42,980 bases of DNA from contig JAFXQV010000016.1 in the NCBI GenBank assembly GCA_017526785.1, positions 1 through 42,980 of the forward strand, given 5' to 3'. The DNA comes from Oscillibacter sp. (lineage in GTDB: Bacteria > Bacillota > Clostridia > Oscillospirales > Oscillospiraceae). Positions within the stretch are counted from its first letter, which is position 1; every line of letters begins with the position of its first letter. Made by a program: the position numbers and the translations under genes. This document shows, piece after piece, positions 1,137 to 25,142 of this stretch. The notes below the pieces were generated by a model, which did no database searches, was not told the DNA's origin, and saw only the letters and a list, made by a program, of their open reading frames with translations.

Positions 1137-4100
1137 ATGAAACGAAAATTGCTCGGTATTCTGACGCTCGTCTTTCTCCTGCTGATGAGTGCGCGGACGG
1201 CGTCCGCCACGTCGGACTACACGGTACCCGGCGGGCAGATTTCCATCAGCGCTACGGGCGTGGTGGTGTCCAGTTCGACGACTGTCACGGAGGCCATCAT
1301 CCCGGCGAAAGTCGGGGACGTGCCTGTCACCGCCATTGGAAAGGGCGTGTTCAAAGACCGCTCGAAGCTCACCCGCGTTGTCATCCCGGACAGCGTGAAA
1401 ACCGTGGGGGCGGACGCGTTCAACGGCTGCGGGGCGCTGGAAGATGTGACGCTCCCGGCGGGCGTCACGCTGGAAACCAACGCGTTCGCGTGGTGCCGTT
1501 CGGTCAATCATGTGAAGTTCACCGGAACGGGCGCTATGTCCGACTTCACGGACAGCTACACATGGACGCCGTGGTACTCCGGGTGCTACTACAACGACCA
1601 CGACTTGGAAATTGAGATACAGTCCGGTGTGACGAGTATCGGGGCGGACACGTTCCACAGTTGCGGGCGTCTGATAAAGGCGACCGTCCCCGACACCGTA
1701 AAGACCATCGGCGCGTCGGCGTTCGAGGGTTGCGGCAAGCTGGCGGACTTGTACTTTGTCCAGTACGCGGACGAAATCGGGGCGAACGCGTTCAAGAACT
1801 GCGGCGTGACGGGTGCTGTGACCGTCAAAGACGGCGTGGCGTTGATTCCGGCGGAGGCGTTTTATAATTGTTCCTCTCTGGAAACGCTGACACTTCCCAA
1901 CAGCGTCAAGACCGTTGGGGAGAACGCTTTCAACAGTTGTAGCGCGCTTGCAACGCTGACGCTCCCGGCAGACGTCACACTGGATACCAACGCGTTCGCG
2001 TGGTGCCGGGGCGTCAGTGATGTGACCATCACCGGGACGGGGGACACGCTCATGTCCGATTTCACGGACAGTTACACATGGACGCCGTGGTACTCCGGCT
2101 GTTACTACAATGACCACGACTTGGTTGTGACCATTCAATCGGGCGTAACGAGTATCGGGGCGCACACGTTCCACAGTTGTGGGCGGCTGACCGTGGCGAC
2201 CGTCGCCGACACCGTAAAGACAATCGGCGCGTCGGCGTTCGAGGGCTGTTCCAGTCTGGGAAGCCTGTCCTTCGTCGAGTACGCCGACGAAATTGGGGCG
2301 TACGCGTTCAAAAACTGTTCCGGCGCGACGGGTGCCGTGACGGTCAAGGACGGCGTGGCGTCGATTCCGGCGGGGGCGTTCTACGGCTGTTCGTCCCTGC
2401 AAACGCTCACGCTCCCCAACAGTGTCAAGGCCGTGGGCGCGGACGCGTTCAACGGCTGTTCGTCGCTGGCAACGCTGACGCTCCCGGCGGATGTCACATT
2501 GGATACCAACGCGTTCGCGTGGTGCCGGGGCGTCAGTGATGTGACCATCACCGGAACGGGGAAAACGGTCATGTCCGATTTCACGGACAGCTACTCGTGG
2601 ACGCCGTGGTACTCCGGCTGTTACTACAACGACCACGACTTGGTTGTGACCATTCAGCCGGGCGTGGCGAGTATCGGGGCGCACACGTTCCACAGTTGCG
2701 GGCGGCTGACCGTGGCGACCGTCGCCGACACCGTAAAGACAATCGGCGCGTCGGCGTTCGAGGGTTGCGGCAAGCTGGAAAGCCTGTCGTTCGTCCAGTA
2801 CGCCGACGAAATCGGGGCGTACGCGTTCAAAAACTGTTCCGGCGCGGCGGGTGCCGTGACGGTCAAAGACGGCGTGGCGTCGATTCCGGCGGGGGCGTTC
2901 TACGGCTGTTCGTCGCTGGAAACGCTCACGCTCCCCGAGAGTGTCAAGACCGTTGGGCAAGACGCCTTCAACGGCTGTGCCGCGCTGGCAAACGTGACGA
3001 TTCCGGCGGGCGTCACGCTGGACGGCAACGCCTTCGCGTGGTGCCGGGGCGTCAGCCACGTACTGTTTATCGGCAATGGCGAAATGTCCGACTTCACGGA
3101 CAGCTACACATGGACGCCGTGGTACTCCGGCTGTTACTACAACGACCACGACCTGACCATTGAAATCCAGTCGGGCGTAACGAGTATCGGGGCGCACACG
3201 TTCCACAGTTGCGGACGGCTGACCGTGGCGGCCGTCGCCGAGAGCGTAAAGAAAATCGGCGCGTCGGCCTTCGAGGGTTGTTCCAAGCTGGAAAGCGTAT
3301 CCTTCGCCCGCTACGCCGACGAAATCGGGGAATACGCCTTTAAAAACTGTTCCGGCGCGGCGGGTGCCGTGACGGTCAAGGACGGCGTGGCGTCGATTTC
3401 GGCGGGCGCGTTCTACGGCTGTTCGTCCCTGCAAACGCTCACGCTCCCCGAGAGCGTCAAGACCGTTGGGCAGGACGCCTTCAACGGCTGTTCCGCGCTG
3501 GCCGACGTGACGCTTCCGGCGAATATCACGCTGGACAACAACGCCTTCGCGTGGTGCCGTGGCGTCAGCCATGTGACGTTCACCGGGACGGGCGAAATGT
3601 CCGACTTCTCGAACAGTTACTCTTGGACGCCGTGGTACTCCGGCTGTTACTACAACGACCACGACGTATCCATTGACATCGCGCCGGGCGTAACGAGTAT
3701 CGGCAACAGTGCCTTCCGGGGTTGCGGACGCGTGCAAAGCATGACCGTCCCGCTGAGCGTCACGCGCATTGACTACGCCGCCCTGCATGACTGCGCGACG
3801 CTCCATGTCTACTACGCCGGGACGGAGGCGCAGTGGGGCGGCGTGGACAACATCGGCACGTCCGGGAACACAAAACTGGTCATGCACTACGGCAGCGCGG
3901 CAAAGCTGGTCGTGACCGCGCCCGACGGGCGGACGGTGCTTTCACAGGAATTCTCCGCGCCGGAAAGCGCCGTTGTGTTTGTCGTGGGCTACGACAGCGC
4001 CGGGAAAATGACCGAAACGCAGTCGAAAACGGGTGCCGCCGCCGTGTCGTTCAGCGTCTCCGACAAGCGCACGGCGAAAGTCCGGGTACTGACCTTCGGC

Positions 4101-4145
4101 ACGGATTACGCGCCCCTGCTTGCTCCGCTGGAAGCGACCGTTTAA
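1137..4145 (+). CDS. Secreted BspA-like leucine-rich repeat (LRR_5) surface protein
   Basis: The product is 1002 aa with a clear Sec signal peptide (MKRKLLGILTLVFLLLMSA, cleavage probably after ASA near residue 25). The start is fixed by AGGAGG at 1123-1128, 8 nt before ATG. Most of the chain is an LRR_5 solenoid with units such as xIGAxAFxGCxxLxxLxLPxSVKTVGxxAF. The solenoid is organised in a ~171-173-residue super-repeat. Each super-repeat carries an aromatic insertion containing TPWYSGCYYNDHD, present five times. The C-terminal ~100 residues (from about 3890) form a non-repeat beta-rich domain. There is no LPxTG or SLH motif, so cell attachment is unclear. BspA-family LRRs act in adhesion and matrix binding; a host- or neighbour-binding role here is inference. 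Confidence 0.9.
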   Translation: MKRKLLGILTLVFLLLMSARTASATSDYTVPGGQISISATGVVVSSSTTVTEAIIPAKVGDVPVTAIGKGVFKDRSKLTRVVIPDSVKTVGADAFNGCGALEDVTLPAGVTLETNAFAWCRSVNHVKFTGTGAMSDFTDSYTWTPWYSGCYYNDHDLEIEIQSGVTSIGADTFHSCGRLIKATVPDTVKTIGASAFEGCGKLADLYFVQYADEIGANAFKNCGVTGAVTVKDGVALIPAEAFYNCSSLETLTLPNSVKTVGENAFNSCSALATLTLPADVTLDTNAFAWCRGVSDVTITGTGDTLMSDFTDSYTWTPWYSGCYYNDHDLVVTIQSGVTSIGAHTFHSCGRLTVATVADTVKTIGASAFEGCSSLGSLSFVEYADEIGAYAFKNCSGATGAVTVKDGVASIPAGAFYGCSSLQTLTLPNSVKAVGADAFNGCSSLATLTLPADVTLDTNAFAWCRGVSDVTITGTGKTVMSDFTDSYSWTPWYSGCYYNDHDLVVTIQPGVASIGAHTFHSCGRLTVATVADTVKTIGASAFEGCGKLESLSFVQYADEIGAYAFKNCSGAAGAVTVKDGVASIPAGAFYGCSSLETLTLPESVKTVGQDAFNGCAALANVTIPAGVTLDGNAFAWCRGVSHVLFIGNGEMSDFTDSYTWTPWYSGCYYNDHDLTIEIQSGVTSIGAHTFHSCGRLTVAAVAESVKKIGASAFEGCSKLESVSFARYADEIGEYAFKNCSGAAGAVTVKDGVASISAGAFYGCSSLQTLTLPESVKTVGQDAFNGCSALADVTLPANITLDNNAFAWCRGVSHVTFTGTGEMSDFSNSYSWTPWYSGCYYNDHDVSIDIAPGVTSIGNSAFRGCGRVQSMTVPLSVTRIDYAALHDCATLHVYYAGTEAQWGGVDNIGTSGNTKLVMHYGSAAKLVVTAPDGRTVLSQEFSAPESAVVFVVGYDSAGKMTETQSKTGAAAVSFSVSDKRTAKVRVLTFGTDYAPLLAPLEATV
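1551..3660 (+). repeat. Five-copy ~515-bp super-repeat inside the LRR gene
   Basis: The anchor TGGACGCCGTGGTACTCCGG occurs at 1563, 2079, 2598, 3111 and 3624, giving spacings of 516, 519, 513 and 513 bp. All spacings are multiples of three. Long stretches between anchors are nearly identical in DNA, so copy number could change by recombination. Confidence 0.9.
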
Positions 4146-8135: not shown

Positions 8136-8164
8136 ATTATAGCAAGAGTTTTATTCGCTGTCAA
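8136..8164 (-). promoter_or_regulatory. Consensus sigma-A promoter of sbcDC
   Basis: On the minus strand, TTGACA (8159-8164) and TATAAT (8136-8141) are separated by exactly 17 bp. The predicted transcript starts near 8129 and gives a ~25-nt leader to the TTG start at 8104. Confidence 0.85.
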
Positions 8165-8184
8165 ATTCCCGCCTGCATGGCAAA

Positions 8185-8205
8185 CTCCCCGATTCCGTGT
8201 CGGTT
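8185..8205 (+). repeat. Left copy of a 21-bp direct repeat flanking the accessory island
   Basis: The 21 bases starting CTCCCCGATT and ending TGTCGGTT are identical to 11763-11783. Here the sequence cannot fold into the hairpin seen at the right copy, because the closing arm TCGGGGAG is absent. Its last two bases are the first two of the next promoter's -35. See the right copy and the findings. Confidence 0.85.
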
Positions 8206-8232
8206 GACAGTCTACGGAAAAGTGTGTATACT
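8204..8232 (+). promoter_or_regulatory. Promoter of the small membrane protein/STAND operon
   Basis: TTGACA (8204-8209), a 17-bp spacer and TATACT (8227-8232). Transcription would start near 8239. That excludes the ATG at 8235 and points to the ATG at 8268. It is divergent from the sbcDC promoter, with 39 bp between the two -35 boxes. Confidence 0.8.
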
Positions 8233-8267
8233 CTATGAATAAATTTCATCACGCGGAGGACATCTTC

Positions 8268-8504
8268 ATGATTACCATTGACGTTTTGAGCGCAATCCAT
8301 ACCCTGAATGAAATTTGCGGAATCCTGTCGTTCCTTGTGTCCTTAATCGCGCTGTGGAAGGTTTCGGACATTCAGAAAAATGTCAAGGTTGGGATTTCCG
8401 GAAACTCCGCCAAGCTCGACATCGCCGGACAGCGCGTCACAGGCAATAAAAACAGCCACATTTCACAGGCCGGACGTGATAACGTATTCCATAAGCCGCA
8501 ATAA
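8268..8504 (+). CDS. Small single-span membrane protein with C-terminal QAGRD motif
   Basis: The product is 78 aa. The start is set by GGAGGA (8255-8260), 7 nt before ATG. The in-frame ATG at 8235 sits on the predicted transcription start and has no ribosome site. One transmembrane helix (ICGILSFLVSLIALWKV, about residues 16-33) precedes a ~45-residue Gly/Asn/Ser-rich tail. The tail ends NKNSHISQAGRDNVFH. The next gene's product begins with a related segment (SHKDVMQAGHDINIY). The gap to that gene is 32 bp, with a shared promoter. I recognise no named family. Architecture and context suggest a membrane-targeting effector or partner of the STAND-like NTPase; this is inference. Confidence 0.75.
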   Translation: MITIDVLSAIHTLNEICGILSFLVSLIALWKVSDIQKNVKVGISGNSAKLDIAGQRVTGNKNSHISQAGRDNVFHKPQ

Positions 8505-8536
8505 CCCCGGAACCGCACAATAAGGAGGTGGCGTAA

Positions 8537-11116
8537 TTGCACGGTGAAAAAATCAGCCAGTCCGTGGGCGGACTGTCCCATAAAGACGTTATGCAGGCGG
8601 GGCATGACATCAACATTTATCCGTCCGCGCCGCCGCCCCCGCCGCCCGCTTCCCGCTGGGTACGCATTGACGCGGACTTCATCGACACACATCAGGACGT
8701 GGAAGACTACGACTTGTCGAACTATCTGGAAGGCGCGGATTGCACATGGGGACTGGTCATTCAGGATAAAATAGTCAATCGCCCCATGCTGGACACGCTC
8801 CTTGACGCGCTCCGGACACATAACGCCGTGGCCTTGCTTGGACCCGGTGCCGAGGGCAAGACCACCCTGCTTATGCAGGCCGCCGTCCGCATGTCGCAAG
8901 AGGGTTGGACGGTGTTCTATGACGACGCCCCGAACAGCGGTGACCCGGACACAGAGGAACCGTCACTTTTCCCCGTGCCGCCAGCCGAAGCGGGTGCGAA
9001 AACACTCTATATCGTCGACAATGTGCCGTTCCGGAGGGATTCGGGGGCGTTTCTGCGGACGGCGGGCGCGGGGCAACGCGTTCTCGTGGCGGGACGGAAA
9101 AATGAGTGGAACCAGTTCGAGCGCAAAAACAGAATCCCAAGACGCAACATTACCGAGTTGGAGACCGAAGCGACCACATCGACGGAGGCGGACGCGTTCG
9201 CGCAATATCTGACCGACACAGGACGGATTGCGAATACGCCCGAAGCCATAGCCGAAACCCGGACTTTGTTTCTGGAGAAAAGCAACGGTTCTTTCTACGC
9301 CGCCATGCTGATGACCATAAAAGGCAAGCAGTTGGAGGAAATCGCCGGGGATATTCTGTGGAATATCGAGAAACCGCAGAACTACGGCGAGGAACCCCCG
9401 CCGATTATGAAACAAATCGCGTGTCTGTGCATGGTGGAATCACTGGGACTGAAAATGCCCAAGCGAATGTATGCCGAACTGCTCAAACGCTACGGCCTGA
9501 ACGCGCTGGAGGTCAATCAGCGCGTGGAGCGGGAAATTCGGACGGTGGGCGGCTATGTGGAAACGCGTCACCCCGTTATTTCCGGGCTGTTCGCGGCGTA
9601 CATCGAAGACACGTACTTTTTCGACAGGGAAGCGGCGTTATCGGACTTTCTCTCCGTAAGCCTCGGCGCATGCGCGGAGGAGTTCCTGTCTAATTCGGAG
9701 GCGCGGGAGCTTATCAAGGCCGCTATGCGTGCCTGCGTGGAATATCGCCCGACATTTGACTATATTTTCGGCCTGTTCGCGGAACTCCCCCAGCCGCCAC
9801 AAGATATGCTTATGCCTTTCCTGAACGTGGTCAAAGACCCGTCATGGCTGGACAGGCTCTGCCGCCAGTTTTACGAGAAGCATTTTCAGAACGGACGCGG
9901 CGGCGGATACGCACAATTTTGGCTCAAATGGGGCAAAGTTCAGGAGCAGCGGCAACAGACCGGGGACATCGCGCAACCATTCACCGCGCAATGGGTCTAT
10001 CATCAGGGCGTGAGACGGACGCCGGAAGAAGCCGGACTTTGGTTAGCGTGGGGAGCGTTGGAGGAACGGGAAGATAACCTCGGCGTGTCCTGTACAGACG
10101 AAAACACCGCCCGATGGATTTACCGTCAGGGAACCTTGAAAGCCCCCACCGCCCCGAATTTGTGGTTGGCGTGGGGAGCGTTGGAGGAGCGGAAAGACAA
10201 CCTCGGCGGCGTGTCCTGTAAGGACGAAAACACCGCCCGATGGATTTACCGTCAGGGAACCTTGAAAGCTACTGACGCCTCAATTTGGTTAGTGTGGGGA
10301 GCGTTGGAGGAACGGGAAAACAACCTCGGCGGCGTGTCCTGTAGAGACGAAAACACCGCCCGATGGATTTACCGTCAGGGAACCTTGAAAGCCCCCACCG
10401 CCCCGAATTTGTGGTTAGCGTGGGGAGCGTTGGAGGAACGGGAAGACAACCTCGGCGGCGTGTCCTGTAAGGACGAAAACACTGCCCGATGGATTTACCG
10501 TCAGGGAACCTTGAAAGCCCCCACCGCCCCGCATTTGTGGTTAGCGTGGGGAGCGTTGAAGGAACGGGAAGACAACCTCGGCGTGTCCTGTAAGGACGAA
10601 AACACCGCCCGATGGATTTACCGTCAGGGAACCTTAAAAGCCCCAAACGTCGCGCTAATATGGCAAGCGTGGTCAAATTTAGAGCTGACCGTTCCGAACC
10701 GTTTGCGCGGCTTTGATACGCCATACAGCGCCGAATGGATTGCGGAGAATGGCTATCGGAACAGTCATAACGTGACGCTGTTACAAAACGCGGTCTGCTT
10801 GGCGATTGCCAATCAGGAAGACGACAAAGGCCGGGAACTGTTGTCAGAATACAGGCAAGGCGCGGAGTACATCCGACGGGCAACAGACAACGCGCGGCGG
10901 GACAGCGACTATGACCCGTATAGAGCATATACTTTAAATTACGCCTTTTTGATTTGTTTCCGTCTGTTGGGCATGGAGGCGGAGGCGGACGCAATCCGTG
11001 AGGCGTTCGCGGAAGCGGGCGTCGATATGGAGCAAGTCAAGGCGCGGGAGATGGAATATTGGACGCGATACCCCGTATATACCCCGCTTCTGGCGTGGCT
11101 GCGGGACAACCCTTGA
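8537..11116 (+). CDS. STAND-like P-loop NTPase with N-terminal QAG motif and C-terminal HAT/TPR-like repeats
   Basis: The product is 859 aa and starts at TTG behind AAGGAGGTG (8522-8530). Residues 1-29 are Gly/His-rich and contain GGLSHKDVMQAGHDINIY, resembling the tail of the upstream protein, followed by a proline run (32-37). Walker A is GPGAEGKT (102-109). A Walker B-like strand is LYIVDN (157-162), and VLVAGRKNEW (182-191) sits where STAND proteins have their arginine sensor. A helical arm/winged-helix-like region follows. Tandem ~42-residue repeats (about residues 478-720) have the HAT signature AxWIYRQGTLKxP...LWLAWGALEE. This matches the STAND plan of signalling motif, NTPase switch and superstructure-forming sensor repeats. 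A conflict or immune function is inferred from architecture and from the adjacent toxin-antitoxin remnant. A specific STAND subfamily cannot be assigned by eye. Confidence 0.8.
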   Translation: MHGEKISQSVGGLSHKDVMQAGHDINIYPSAPPPPPPASRWVRIDADFIDTHQDVEDYDLSNYLEGADCTWGLVIQDKIVNRPMLDTLLDALRTHNAVALLGPGAEGKTTLLMQAAVRMSQEGWTVFYDDAPNSGDPDTEEPSLFPVPPAEAGAKTLYIVDNVPFRRDSGAFLRTAGAGQRVLVAGRKNEWNQFERKNRIPRRNITELETEATTSTEADAFAQYLTDTGRIANTPEAIAETRTLFLEKSNGSFYAAMLMTIKGKQLEEIAGDILWNIEKPQNYGEEPPPIMKQIACLCMVESLGLKMPKRMYAELLKRYGLNALEVNQRVEREIRTVGGYVETRHPVISGLFAAYIEDTYFFDREAALSDFLSVSLGACAEEFLSNSEARELIKAAMRACVEYRPTFDYIFGLFAELPQPPQDMLMPFLNVVKDPSWLDRLCRQFYEKHFQNGRGGGYAQFWLKWGKVQEQRQQTGDIAQPFTAQWVYHQGVRRTPEEAGLWLAWGALEEREDNLGVSCTDENTARWIYRQGTLKAPTAPNLWLAWGALEERKDNLGGVSCKDENTARWIYRQGTLKATDASIWLVWGALEERENNLGGVSCRDENTARWIYRQGTLKAPTAPNLWLAWGALEEREDNLGGVSCKDENTARWIYRQGTLKAPTAPHLWLAWGALKEREDNLGVSCKDENTARWIYRQGTLKAPNVALIWQAWSNLELTVPNRLRGFDTPYSAEWIAENGYRNSHNVTLLQNAVCLAIANQEDDKGRELLSEYRQGAEYIRRATDNARRDSDYDPYRAYTLNYAFLICFRLLGMEAEADAIREAFAEAGVDMEQVKAREMEYWTRYPVYTPLLAWLRDNP
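10103..10726 (+). repeat. Tandem 123/126-bp repeats encoding HAT-like units
   Basis: Units begin at 10103, 10229, 10352, 10478 and 10601 (codon AAC of NTARWIYRQGTLK), giving periods of 126, 123, 126 and 123 bp. A diverged unit precedes them (about 9980, AQWVYHQG). Copies are almost identical in DNA, including synonymous sites. Variation is confined to a few residues around APTAPNLW and ERE/KDNLG. Confidence 0.92.
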
Positions 11117-11163: not shown

Positions 11164-11191
11164 TTGACAGCCCGCCGCCGCCATGCTACAA
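11164..11191 (+). promoter_or_regulatory. Promoter of the antitoxin/toxin pair
   Basis: TTGACA (11164-11169), a 16-bp spacer and TACAAT (11186-11191). The leader to ATG 11237 is about 40 nt. The promoter starts 47 bp after the STAND stop, so the pair can be expressed separately. Confidence 0.75.
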
Positions 11192-11236
11192 TGTCACAAA
11201 ATGTGGGTGTGGGTACTGGAACAGGAGGCAATGGTC

Positions 11237-11476
11237 ATGACGGTAACAAATCTGGTGGAATTTCGGCGGAATCTTTCCGTTTTTCTGGAAAAGGCCTCAC
11301 AGGGCGCGGAAGTTATCGGCGTTGACTGGGAGGGCGGCGATGTCGTTGTCATGAGCGGTGAAGCCTACCGGGGTCTGTTGGAAACTGTGCGCTTGACCCG
11401 CATACCCGGCATGAAAGAAAAACTGCTGGACGGCATGCAAACGCCGATTGAGGAGTGTGACGACTTTGCATGGTAA
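11237..11476 (+). CDS. Phd/YefM-family antitoxin
   Basis: The product is 79 aa. GGAGG (11224-11228) lies 8 nt before the ATG at 11237. The frame is open further upstream to 11183, but that ATG overlaps the -10 box. The N-terminal Phd/YefM fold is recognisable (TVTNLVEFRRNLSVFLEKASQ, then VVVMSGEAYRGLLETV). The C-terminal toxin-binding tail ends ECDDFAW. Such antitoxins bind and neutralise a YoeB/Txe RNase and repress their own promoter. The stop overlaps the start of the damaged toxin gene. The antitoxin itself looks intact. Confidence 0.85.
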   Translation: MTVTNLVEFRRNLSVFLEKASQGAEVIGVDWEGGDVVVMSGEAYRGLLETVRLTRIPGMKEKLLDGMQTPIEECDDFAW

Positions 11477-12594: not shown

Positions 12595-14091
12595 TCAAGC
12601 GTCGGCGTTCGTCCGGCCGTAACGCGCCGTAACGGCCGCGATTTCGTTGCGGAGTGCGTCGGACAGTTCCTCCTCCCGGACGCGCCAGCGCCAGTTCCCG
12701 CCGACACTCGACGGCCGATTCATGCGGCAGTCGTTGCCAAGCCCCATATAGTCCTGCAGGGGAATCACGCACAGCCGCGCCGGACTGCTCATCGCCAGCG
12801 ACACAAACGGCTTGACAAGTTCCGTGTCGGGCGTGTAGAAGTCGCAGAGATACTCCCGAAGCTGCCGCAGTTCCTCCGGCTTGATATTGTCCAGCCACCC
12901 GGCTGACGTTTCGTTATCGTGCGTCCCAGTGTAGGCCACGCTGTTGACGGGGTAATTGTGGGGGAGGTAGTCGACGGCCGCGCCCGTGTCGCGGGAGTCG
13001 AACGCGAATTGCAAGACCTTCATGCCGGGGAAGCCCGTGTCCCGGACGAGTTGCCGTACGCTGTCCGTGACGTATCCCAAATCCTCCGCGATAACCTCGC
13101 GGCGTCCCAAATGGCGCTCCATGGCGCGGAAGAAGTCCAGCCCCGGCCCCTTGCGCCAATGGCCGTTGACGGCCGTCGTCTCGCCGTACGGGATGGCGTA
13201 ATACTCGTCGAAGCCGCGAAAGTGGTCGATACGCACCACGTCGCAGAGCGCGAAAACCGCTTTGAGGCGTTCCGCCCACCACTGGTAGTCGGTCTGTTTG
13301 TGGTAGTCCCAGTCGTAAAGCGGATTGCCCCAGAGCTGTCCGTCGGCGGAGAAGCCGTCCGGCGGACACCCGGCAACCGCTGTCGGACGGTTGTCCGCGT
13401 CCAGTTGGAACAGTTCCGGGTTCGCCCACGCGTCGGCGCTGTCCATGGCGACATAAATCGGAACGTCGCCGATAACGCGGATATGTTTCCCGCGCGCGTA
13501 CGCCCGGAGCGCCGCCCACTGCCGCGAAAACTCCCACTGCACCCGCTTCTGGAACGCGATTTCGTCCGCCAGTTCGGCGCGGCATGCTTTCAGGGTGTCC
13601 GGGCGGCGCAGGCGGATTTCCTCCGGCCAGTCCGTCCACGGCCTGCCGCCGAATTTGCCTTTCAGCGCCATGAACAGCGCGTAATCGTCGAGCCAGTGTC
13701 GGTTGCCGTCGAGGAAGGCGCGGTAGTCCGCGTCGTCGAGCGGTTCGCCGTCCGCGAACGCCCGGCGCAGGAGCGGCAAACGGGTCTCGTAGAGCGCTCT
13801 GTAGTCGATTCGGCCGGAGGAATCGACGGGCGGGATGTCACTTTCGGAGAGCAGGCCGCGCCGTACAAGTTCGTCCAAGTCAATCAGATACGGGTTCCCG
13901 GCGAAGGTCGAAAAGGACTGGTACGGCGAATCCCCGTACCCGGTCGAACCCAGCGGGAGTATCTGCCAATAGGACTGCCCGGCCGCCGACAGGAAGTCGA
14001 CCCAGTTCCGGGCGTGGCGCGAAAAGCTCCCGATTCCGTGCGCCCCCGGCAGACTGAACACCGGAAGTAAAATGCCGCTTTCTCGTTTCAT
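12595..14091 (-). CDS. malQ: 4-alpha-glucanotransferase (amylomaltase)
   Basis: This 498-aa GH77 enzyme transfers glucan segments between maltodextrins and releases glucose. It begins MKRESGILLPVFSLPGAHGIG, the usual bacterial MalQ start, behind AAGGG; the extra open frame upstream to 14292 lacks family similarity. Family motifs seen are GSTGYGDSPYQSFSTFAGNPYLIDL, the nucleophile region VVRIDHFRGFDEYYAIP, the acid/base region VIAEDLGYVT, and YTGTHDNET around the stabilising Asp. Divergent to a sugar ABC operon across ~260 bp, which supports a maltodextrin substrate for that transporter. Confidence 0.97.
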   Translation of the reverse strand: MKRESGILLPVFSLPGAHGIGSFSRHARNWVDFLSAAGQSYWQILPLGSTGYGDSPYQSFSTFAGNPYLIDLDELVRRGLLSESDIPPVDSSGRIDYRALYETRLPLLRRAFADGEPLDDADYRAFLDGNRHWLDDYALFMALKGKFGGRPWTDWPEEIRLRRPDTLKACRAELADEIAFQKRVQWEFSRQWAALRAYARGKHIRVIGDVPIYVAMDSADAWANPELFQLDADNRPTAVAGCPPDGFSADGQLWGNPLYDWDYHKQTDYQWWAERLKAVFALCDVVRIDHFRGFDEYYAIPYGETTAVNGHWRKGPGLDFFRAMERHLGRREVIAEDLGYVTDSVRQLVRDTGFPGMKVLQFAFDSRDTGAAVDYLPHNYPVNSVAYTGTHDNETSAGWLDNIKPEELRQLREYLCDFYTPDTELVKPFVSLAMSSPARLCVIPLQDYMGLGNDCRMNRPSSVGGNWRWRVREEELSDALRNEIAAVTARYGRTNADA

Positions 14092-23765: not shown

Positions 23766-25142
23766 TCACACTCTGCGCGTCACGCGGGTGCGACGCGGAA
23801 ATGTCCTTTTGAACAGTCCGGACGCAAATTTCGTATACAACGGAACATCGACGCTTGTTAGGTTGTCGCAATCCATAAAGGCATTTTCTTCTATTTCCGT
23901 CACGCTGTCGGGAATCGTGACGCTTGTCAGCCCCACGCAACCAGAGAAAGCCTTCTCTTTGATTGTCTTCACGCTGTCGGGAATCGTGACGCTTGTCAGC
24001 GCCGCGCAACCCAAGAAAGCGCTCTCTCCGATAATCGTCACGCTGTCGGGAATCGTGACGCTTGTCAGCCCCACGCAACCAGAGAAAGCCCTACCTTCGA
24101 TTATCCTCACGCTGTCGGGAATCGTGACGCTTGTCAGCCCCACGCAACCAGAGAAAGCCCTCCAACCGATTTCCGTCACGCTGTCGGGAATCGTGACGCT
24201 TGTCAGCCCCACGCAACCAGAGAAAGACCCATCTTTGATTATCCTCACGCTGTCGGGAATCGTGACGCTTGTCAACGCTTTGCAACCACGGAAAGCCTCA
24301 ATTCCGATAGTCTTCACGCTGTCGGGAATCGTGACGCTTGTCAGCCCCGCGCAACCACTGAAAGCCCAACCTCCGATAGTCTTCACGCTGTCGGGAATCG
24401 TGACGCTTGTCAGCACCGCGCAACCAAAGAAAGCGTGCGCTCCGATAGTCTTCACGCTGTCGGGAATCGTGACGCTTGTCAGCCCCGCGCAACCAGAGAA
24501 AGTGAGCTCTCCGATAGTCGTCACGCCGTGTTGAATTTTCGCTTCTGTAATCGTTGCGCGTTCGTTCCACCACGGCGTGTCATAGGTATATGTTTCGGAA
24601 TCGTATTCAAAATTCCACATAGCCCCGGTGCCGGAAATTGTCAGAACGCCGTTTTCGTCCAGCGTATAGGTTACATTGTCCCCGCAGTTGCCGCTCTTGA
24701 CAATCCGCACGGGTTGCGGTTGCGGCGGCAGTGTCACGGGGCGCGGCTTTGGTGTGGGTTGCGGCGTTGTGGGCGTTGGCGCGAGTTGCGGCGTTGTTGT
24801 GGGCGTTGGCGCGGGTTGCGGCGTTGGCGCGGCGATACCGTACAGCGTCCGCAGAGCGTTTATCAGGCGTTCAACGGGTTCCGCACTTAACAGCAGTTCA
24901 TTTTCGAGAATATGCCGCGCCTTCATGACGGCGCGTTCATCGCCCGGCGCGGCGTTCTCCAGTTCGGACAGCGTCCCGCGCTCCGCGAGTTGCCGCAGAA
25001 TGTTGGCGTAGGCTTTCAGCTCCGGCGACAGGTCGCCGATAATCGCGTGCATACGCTTCGCGTCACGGAACACGCTTGCCCCGAACTCGTACCGCATGTA
25101 AAGCAATACACTTTCCAGACTTTTGGGGTCGTAAGCTGACAT
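23766..25142 (-). CDS. LRR_5 protein without signal peptide
   Basis: The product is 458 aa. AAGGAGA precedes ATG 25142. Residues 1-105 form a helical domain of unknown family (MSAYDPKSLESVLLYMRYEF...). A Pro/Thr linker (about 106-145) follows, then a short beta segment (CGDNVTYTLDENGVLTISG) typical of the entry to LRR_5 solenoids. About ten 23-residue LRR_5 units (SVTIPDSVKTIGxxAFxGCxxLT) make up the rest. The C-terminus is basic (FKRTFPRRTRVTRRV). No signal peptide, lipobox or membrane helix is present, so it is predicted to be cytoplasmic, unlike the secreted LRR protein at 1137-4145. Function unknown; a binding scaffold is likely. Confidence 0.85.
   Translation of the reverse strand: MSAYDPKSLESVLLYMRYEFGASVFRDAKRMHAIIGDLSPELKAYANILRQLAERGTLSELENAAPGDERAVMKARHILENELLLSAEPVERLINALRTLYGIAAPTPQPAPTPTTTPQLAPTPTTPQPTPKPRPVTLPPQPQPVRIVKSGNCGDNVTYTLDENGVLTISGTGAMWNFEYDSETYTYDTPWWNERATITEAKIQHGVTTIGELTFSGCAGLTSVTIPDSVKTIGAHAFFGCAVLTSVTIPDSVKTIGGWAFSGCAGLTSVTIPDSVKTIGIEAFRGCKALTSVTIPDSVRIIKDGSFSGCVGLTSVTIPDSVTEIGWRAFSGCVGLTSVTIPDSVRIIEGRAFSGCVGLTSVTIPDSVTIIGESAFLGCAALTSVTIPDSVKTIKEKAFSGCVGLTSVTIPDSVTEIEENAFMDCDNLTSVDVPLYTKFASGLFKRTFPRRTRVTRRV
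23870..24520 (-). repeat. 69-bp tandem repeats encoding 23-residue LRR_5 units
   Basis: A ~30-bp core (plus strand CACGCTGTCGGGAATCGTGA followed by CGCTTGTCA) recurs every 69 bp about nine times. The intervening ~38 bp vary. The unit length equals 23 codons and the frame is kept throughout. Confidence 0.92.

Follow-up and report, generated by a model that had tools for sequence, protein, structure and literature searches.

The stretch of DNA analysed here as a whole, subsequently called the window, comprises 42,980 nucleotides of contig JAFXQV010000016.1 of Oscillibacter sp. and contains on its + strand a two-gene unit of about 2.9 kb (8204..11116). The unit consists of a gene for a small membrane protein of 78 aa (8268..8504, +), proposed as effector, and a gene for an nSTAND_NTPase5 protein of 859 aa (8537..11116, +), proposed as sensor and switch. 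A sequence-only reading, the coordinates and sequences of which have proven correct, had interpreted the pair as an NLR-like system with a signalling motif common to both proteins.

Anatomy of the two-gene unit

The unit begins with a sigma-70-type promoter, TTGACA-17-TATACT, on the + strand (8204..8232; 11/12 consensus positions), while promoter-like sites in the window amount to 4 versus 1.8 expected from shuffles. The best start of the small open reading frame is ATG at 8268 with GGAGG 8 bp before it, and the ATPase gene starts with TTG at 8537, preceded by AAGGAGGTGG. Only 32 bp separate the genes and no terminator-like site has been found between them on the + strand; like the common promoter, this agrees with the single transcript assumed by the sequence-only reading. 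Judged by its anatomy, the pair of genes is a real operon.

The small protein has its best 19-residue hydrophobic window at residues 12-30. As lysine plus arginine count 0 ahead of this window and 4 in the next 20 residues, the positive-inside rule predicts the tail to be cytosolic (Nout-Cin). A membrane partner with one helix, encoded on the strand of the ATPase gene, is thereby supported. AlphaFold, run on the single sequence, predicts a helix at 3-59 and a tail of low confidence (mean pLDDT 69.9). No Pfam, NCBIfam or PADLOC family is matched at E <= 10, a null that is limited, as are the other Pfam nulls at this threshold, by the HMMER filters, which discard most weak matches. A comparison with PHROG gives one match, to a family of unknown function (E 0.091).

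The frame of the ATPase gene consists of 859 intact codons with a P-loop and an unbroken repeat array. The STAND-type NTPase proposed from the sequence is confirmed by a match to PF25199 (nSTAND_NTPase5) with 72.6 bits at a cut-off of 34 (E 3.8e-20), which begins at residue 62 and places the domain at 8720..9127 (+). The 61 residues ahead of the matched stretch contain no effector-type family according to Pfam. Equally, a search against PADLOC at E <= 10 gives PDC-S01 (0.0089) and PtuB (0.053) alone and no model of the antiviral STAND (Avs) systems.

The HAT-like repeat array (9983..10740, +) is composed of seven anchors, spaced by 41-42 residues, which enclose six units of about 41 aa each. 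On the DNA level, TRF reports an array at 10040-10644 with a period of 126 bp, 4.9 copies and 90% matches, and the units are near-identical. Pfam HAT models are not matched by the ATPase at E <= 10; a profile built from the window ATPase and two relatives, when compared with PDB sequences, finds two Prp6 sequences over the array (E 5.2e-21 and 1e-20). Prp6 is a HAT-repeat protein, and the match substantiates the earlier assignment of HAT-type repeats.

Relatives with a fused front region

Clear relatives of the ATPase occur in Ruminiclostridium sufflavum DSM 19573 (L059) and Clostridium carboxidivorans P7 (L060), which align with the window protein along both ATPase and repeats at 29% and 28% identity, respectively; the former is the one clear match among 391 genomes of the class (G442, E 5.3e-42). 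In both relatives, 273 residues precede the matched ATPase stretch as compared to 61 in the window protein. The front region of the R. sufflavum protein is trypsin-like (PF00089, 22.2 bits versus a cut-off of 20.6, scored on its L051 copy). No Pfam trypsin model is matched at E <= 0.1 by the C. carboxidivorans front region, but its identity to that of R. sufflavum is 45% (119/267 columns), and TAAHV and GxSGSG are kept in both. PADLOC models matched by the front region are LmuA and Avs2 in R. sufflavum and RT_UG9_large in both strains, and none of the PADLOC STAND models fits the ATPase part of either protein well.

Directly upstream of the ATPase gene, a metallo-beta-lactamase (MBL)-fold gene, which overlaps it in R. 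sufflavum and touches it in C. carboxidivorans, matches PF00753 over cut-off in both strains; its best PADLOC model is LmuA (1.3e-64 and 8.8e-62), and Avs1a is matched as well (1.1e-26 and 9.2e-27). Thus, both strains possess a two-gene unit of an MBL-fold and a trypsin-like-nSTAND5-HAT protein (L059:7277-11403 and L060:7289-11304), and the slot upstream of the ATPase taken by the MBL gene there is taken by the small membrane gene in the window. QAG, the core of the segment shared by the window proteins, is found nowhere in either ATPase. The sequence-only reading had named homologues with neither motif nor neighbouring small gene as the finding that would speak against it, and by the letter these two proteins are such homologues, yet in both of them a trypsin-like region is fused to the front, as would be expected from an effector swap. 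The comparison suggests that a tag and a trans-acting membrane partner have taken the place of an effector module. As one chassis of ATPase and sensor is combined with a fused trypsin-like region in the two named strains, and with a tag and a separate membrane protein of 78 aa in the window, function becomes comparable across an effector swap.

The repeat arrays, with seven anchors in all three proteins, are more alike within than between proteins. Mean likeness of the six units within a protein is 68% in the window protein, 67% in R. sufflavum and 63% in C. carboxidivorans, while between proteins it is 33% (window and R. sufflavum), 31% (window and C. carboxidivorans) and 52% (the two relatives). 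The pattern suggests that the arrays have evolved in concert in each lineage and at constant length, most clearly in the window protein.

Within the order, PF25199 is exceeded over cut-off in 6/295 genomes, own genome included, and six rows from the five other genomes have been inspected. One of them (G091, over cut-off) is read as an FtsY-like GTPase and was set aside as a STAND protein. In the remaining five, the residues before the match amount to 309 (L019), 291 (L022), 259 (L053), 213 (L056) and 451 (L055); as the L056 match begins at profile position 39, about 175 residues are situated in front of that domain. Upon rescoring, L019, L053 and L056 are over the cut-off and L022 and L055 under it. 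SIR2 is matched by the front region of L019 and L022, Cap4 nuclease in L053 and TCAD9 in L055 are matched below cut-off, and the L056 front region corresponds to no named family. All seven inspected PF25199-type relatives, the two trypsin-like proteins among them, thereby have at least about 175 residues ahead of the ATPase domain. Compared with them, the window ATPase leaves no space for a fused effector, while the gene just upstream encodes a membrane protein with a similar segment; this is the strongest argument for the small protein as an effector in trans. At E <= 1e-10, NACHT was found in 0/167 genomes of the order, and such receptors seem to be rare there.

The QAG segments and their surroundings

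The small protein carries a QAG-x-D segment at its C-terminus, and the ATPase carries a similar one at its N-terminus. The motif region of the former, NKNSHISQAGRDNVFH, spans 8445..8492 (+) with the QAGxD word at 8466-8480; in the latter, GGLSHKDVMQAGHDINIY followed by a Pro-rich linker spans 8567..8620 (+) with the word at 8594-8608. The SH-then-QAG-x-D order described for the tail SHISQAGRDNVFH and the head SHKDVMQAGHDINIY is indeed present in both, though with 2 versus 4 residues between SH and QAG and an offset by one after the D. Tail and head align over about 20 residues with a BLOSUM62 local score of 33, a modest likeness of both termini that is suggestive and no proof. By arithmetic, a genome is expected to contain two same-strand QAGxD copies within 128 bp approximately 0.03 times.

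Searches for further members have been conducted on several levels. Among 148 other near genomes, a large part of which belong to the same genus, none contained an ATPase relative at E <= 1e-5, and the small protein gave 16 rows in 149 near genomes, its own and 15 weak ones at E 0.08-0.64. With the N-terminal part of the ATPase, the 391 class genomes gave its own genome, R. sufflavum and, weakly, a match inside a long open reading frame of G732 (E 2.9e-4); with a profile, its own genome alone was recovered at E <= 1e-8 in 398 genomes of the phylum, with 2 candidates scored per genome. Plasmids, phages and viral contigs gave no relative and one phage row at E 7. A scan of genome contigs with two narrow peptide patterns, by which remoter relatives were probably missed, resulted in 88 stretches and 2 relatives.

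A longer version of the motif word occurs in 5/391 class genomes, own included, as compared to 4 for the reversed control, and the 4 matches outside the window are read as situated in FtsZ, a cobalamin gene, an antisense-looking open reading frame and a frame with stops. On viral contigs, 1 pair of words among the matches listed (234 loci) is junk-like, and stricter double-word versions gave 5 and 0 matches, the 5 being one kind of phage repeat protein. Viral-contig proteins of 542-608 aa (L096, L150, L170, L353 and L354), picked up by the motif word, contain glycine-rich repeats with QAGADVNVTG-like units and are unrelated to the pair. Loci are available for 30/35 places with the QAGxD word in the own genome, of which 12, the ATPase's own not counted, fall outside any complete called open reading frame. 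One other protein (L327; 77 aa, hydrophobicity 1.3) carries the word near the C-terminus and shows no clear membrane helix.

With respect to the genome setting, homology to three closer relatives of the same genus ends at window positions 8142-8166, upstream of sbcD; the neighbour of sbcD differs in two of them and the contig of the third ends about 430 bp further on. On the malQ side, homology ends at 12613 (one relative). As sbcD and malQ are flanked by different genes in close relatives, these provide no empty site for comparison. The G+C content at third codon positions is 0.62 in the small gene and 0.68 in the ATPase gene, compared to 0.79 in sbcD and 0.78 in malQ. The segment around the unit is variable and possibly laterally acquired, and it also holds a Phd/YefM antitoxin gene and a tRNA-Thr. 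The antitoxin gene (11164-11476), directly after the unit, has its own near-consensus promoter, and the short frames that follow include a RelE-like start and no single full-length toxin frame, as read from the open reading frames with no search made. BspA-type leucine-rich repeat proteins (LRR_5) are encoded at 1137-4145 (E 6.7e-146) and 23766-25142 (E 6.1e-74).

A proposed trans-acting effector and its rivals

The following mechanism is proposed. The HAT-like array of the ATPase would sense a trigger, probably an invader protein, upon which the nSTAND5 domain would oligomerise and bring the N-terminal QAG segments together. Clustered QAG segments could then bind the small membrane protein by its matching tail in the cytosol and probably template this tail in a cross-beta (amyloid-like) form, and the resulting clusters of the small protein would injure the membrane and bring the infected cell to a halt. 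The small membrane protein may thereby be the killing or alarm part of the unit. That it is a trans-acting effector of the ATPase is slightly favoured over its contrary; an amyloid-like nature of the contact between both motifs is put forward tentatively, as somewhat less probable than not, and draws on precedent, on position and on a modest likeness of sequence. That the pair is antiviral-STAND-like, with phage defence as its putative task and the effector in trans, and acts by this mechanism as a whole, is considered a nearly balanced proposition that leans somewhat to the negative.

Bacterial amyloid signalosomes of NLR proteins, the BASS/Bell systems, have reportedly been treated by Dyrka et al. 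in 2020. In these systems, according to a review, the motif is placed at the NLR N-terminus and the effector C-terminus, the genes are adjacent and the Bell effector contains a transmembrane helix (PMC7889193). The same review names mainly filamentous actinobacteria and cyanobacteria as hosts and regards the signalling outcome as still to be explored (PMC7889193). The window unit resembles the BASS/Bell systems described in its adjacent genes, in the position of the segments, at the head of an NLR-type ATPase and at the tail of a small putative effector with a transmembrane helix, and in a segment length of about 20 residues (PMC7889193, PMC8086366). It differs from these descriptions in its host, called a clostridium for sharing its class with R. 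sufflavum, and in a putative effector that consists of little more than one helix and shows no recognised Bell domain, as judged from Pfam, NCBIfam and PADLOC at E <= 10, libraries which may contain no Bell profile. Motif and chassis differ as well, the ATPase being an nSTAND5 protein with HAT-like repeats. The gene plan is that of published BASS/Bell systems, set apart by the clostridial host, the lack of a recognised Bell or RHIM domain and the nSTAND5-HAT chassis. Among the matches listed in the open-licence literature, none described an NLR whose partner is a bare one-helix protein, which is no proof of absence, and none of the matches listed there, best term matches first, contained the wording 'HAT repeat'.

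A central STAND ATPase and a C-terminal helical repeat array are shared with Avs proteins and with the R. sufflavum and C. carboxidivorans pairs, the homology of the latter to the window protein covering ATPase and repeats. Neither a fused effector region nor an MBL gene is present in the window unit, and it was not filed as Avs, as an N-terminal fused effector and a PADLOC Avs model match are both lacking. A similarity to effector-associated domain and death-like adaptor systems consists in a common adaptor that recruits a separately encoded effector to an ATPase core; the adaptors of those systems are folded domains, whereas the window element is a short, probably unfolded segment (PMC8195603). 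The RHIM of animal necroptosis provides a further parallel, a short segment with Q-x-G by which sensor and executor are presumably linked, although the RHIM core is not present in the window proteins and no Pfam match is obtained.

Several observations weigh against the proposed mechanism. The alignment score of 33 is reached by 119/20,000 shuffled pairs, and 2/992 control pairs of a C-terminus and an N-terminus, taken from 32 other, mechanically chosen open reading frames of the window, score as high (39 and 38). With comparison peptides from PMC8086366, alignment to the one BASS3 peptide tested, from Frankia, is not significant (shuffle p 0.36 for the tail and 0.91 for the head), to an archaeal BASS3-like peptide from Methanothrix borderline (p 0.044 and 0.052), and to the Nectria sigma peptide p is 0.47 for both. 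BASS3 membership is thus unsupported by sequence, and the pair was not filed there. RHIM or amyloid-type Pfam families are matched at E <= 10 neither by the small protein nor by the ATPase. The RHIM core is [VI]Q[VI]G, while the motif cores are SQAG and MQAG; membership in RHIM was therefore rejected as well, and a kinship to known amyloid or RHIM-like motifs, to which the sequence-only reading had referred, finds no support in these comparisons. As no family is matched, the case for an effector role of the small protein comes from its position and its one helix alone. A second example of the motif pair was found neither in the genomes nor in the viral contigs searched, so that the case is built on one locus, and one comparison of nSTAND5 relatives cannot separate loss from gain of the fused region.

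Two alternatives have to be set against this background. The motif likeness may be due to chance; the small open reading frame would then be a leader gene that is unrelated or has no function, and the ATPase a degenerate defence gene that lost its effector. The QAGxD word is not enriched, as its 35 occurrences in the genome compare with 33 for the reversed control; the near-equality of the longer word and its control in the class, the high-scoring control pairs and the third-position G+C content of the small gene, which is below that of the ATPase gene, sbcD and malQ, point in the same direction. Good ribosome sites on both genes, a near-consensus promoter, an intact 859-codon frame with P-loop, an intact repeat array and motifs at both expected termini speak against this explanation, which is held to be improbable. 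Equally improbable is that the motifs bind by ordinary, non-amyloid contact and the small protein serves as anchor or inhibitor, keeping the ATPase at the membrane in an off state, with the output provided by the ATPase or an unlinked partner. One-helix proteins often serve as anchors, AlphaFold predicts no beta structure for the lone small chain and the tail only with low confidence, and the amyloid reading draws on composition, position and precedent only; yet an effectorless receptor would be odd among relatives that all have a sizeable region before the ATPase domain.

The trans-acting effector is retained as the preferred reading. In its most specific form, the unit would be a clostridial minimal NLR amyloid signalosome, an Avs-like chassis in which the fused protease has been replaced by a new prion-type tag unlike BASS, and this tag templates a membrane killer made up of a bare single helix; this form is regarded as rather unlikely. 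If true, antiviral STAND proteins could alternate between enzymes fused to them and membrane effectors recruited through amyloid. Through its counterparts in the two named strains, and with a unit of only 2.9 kb, the locus makes the question of the signalling outcome of NLR proteins testable.

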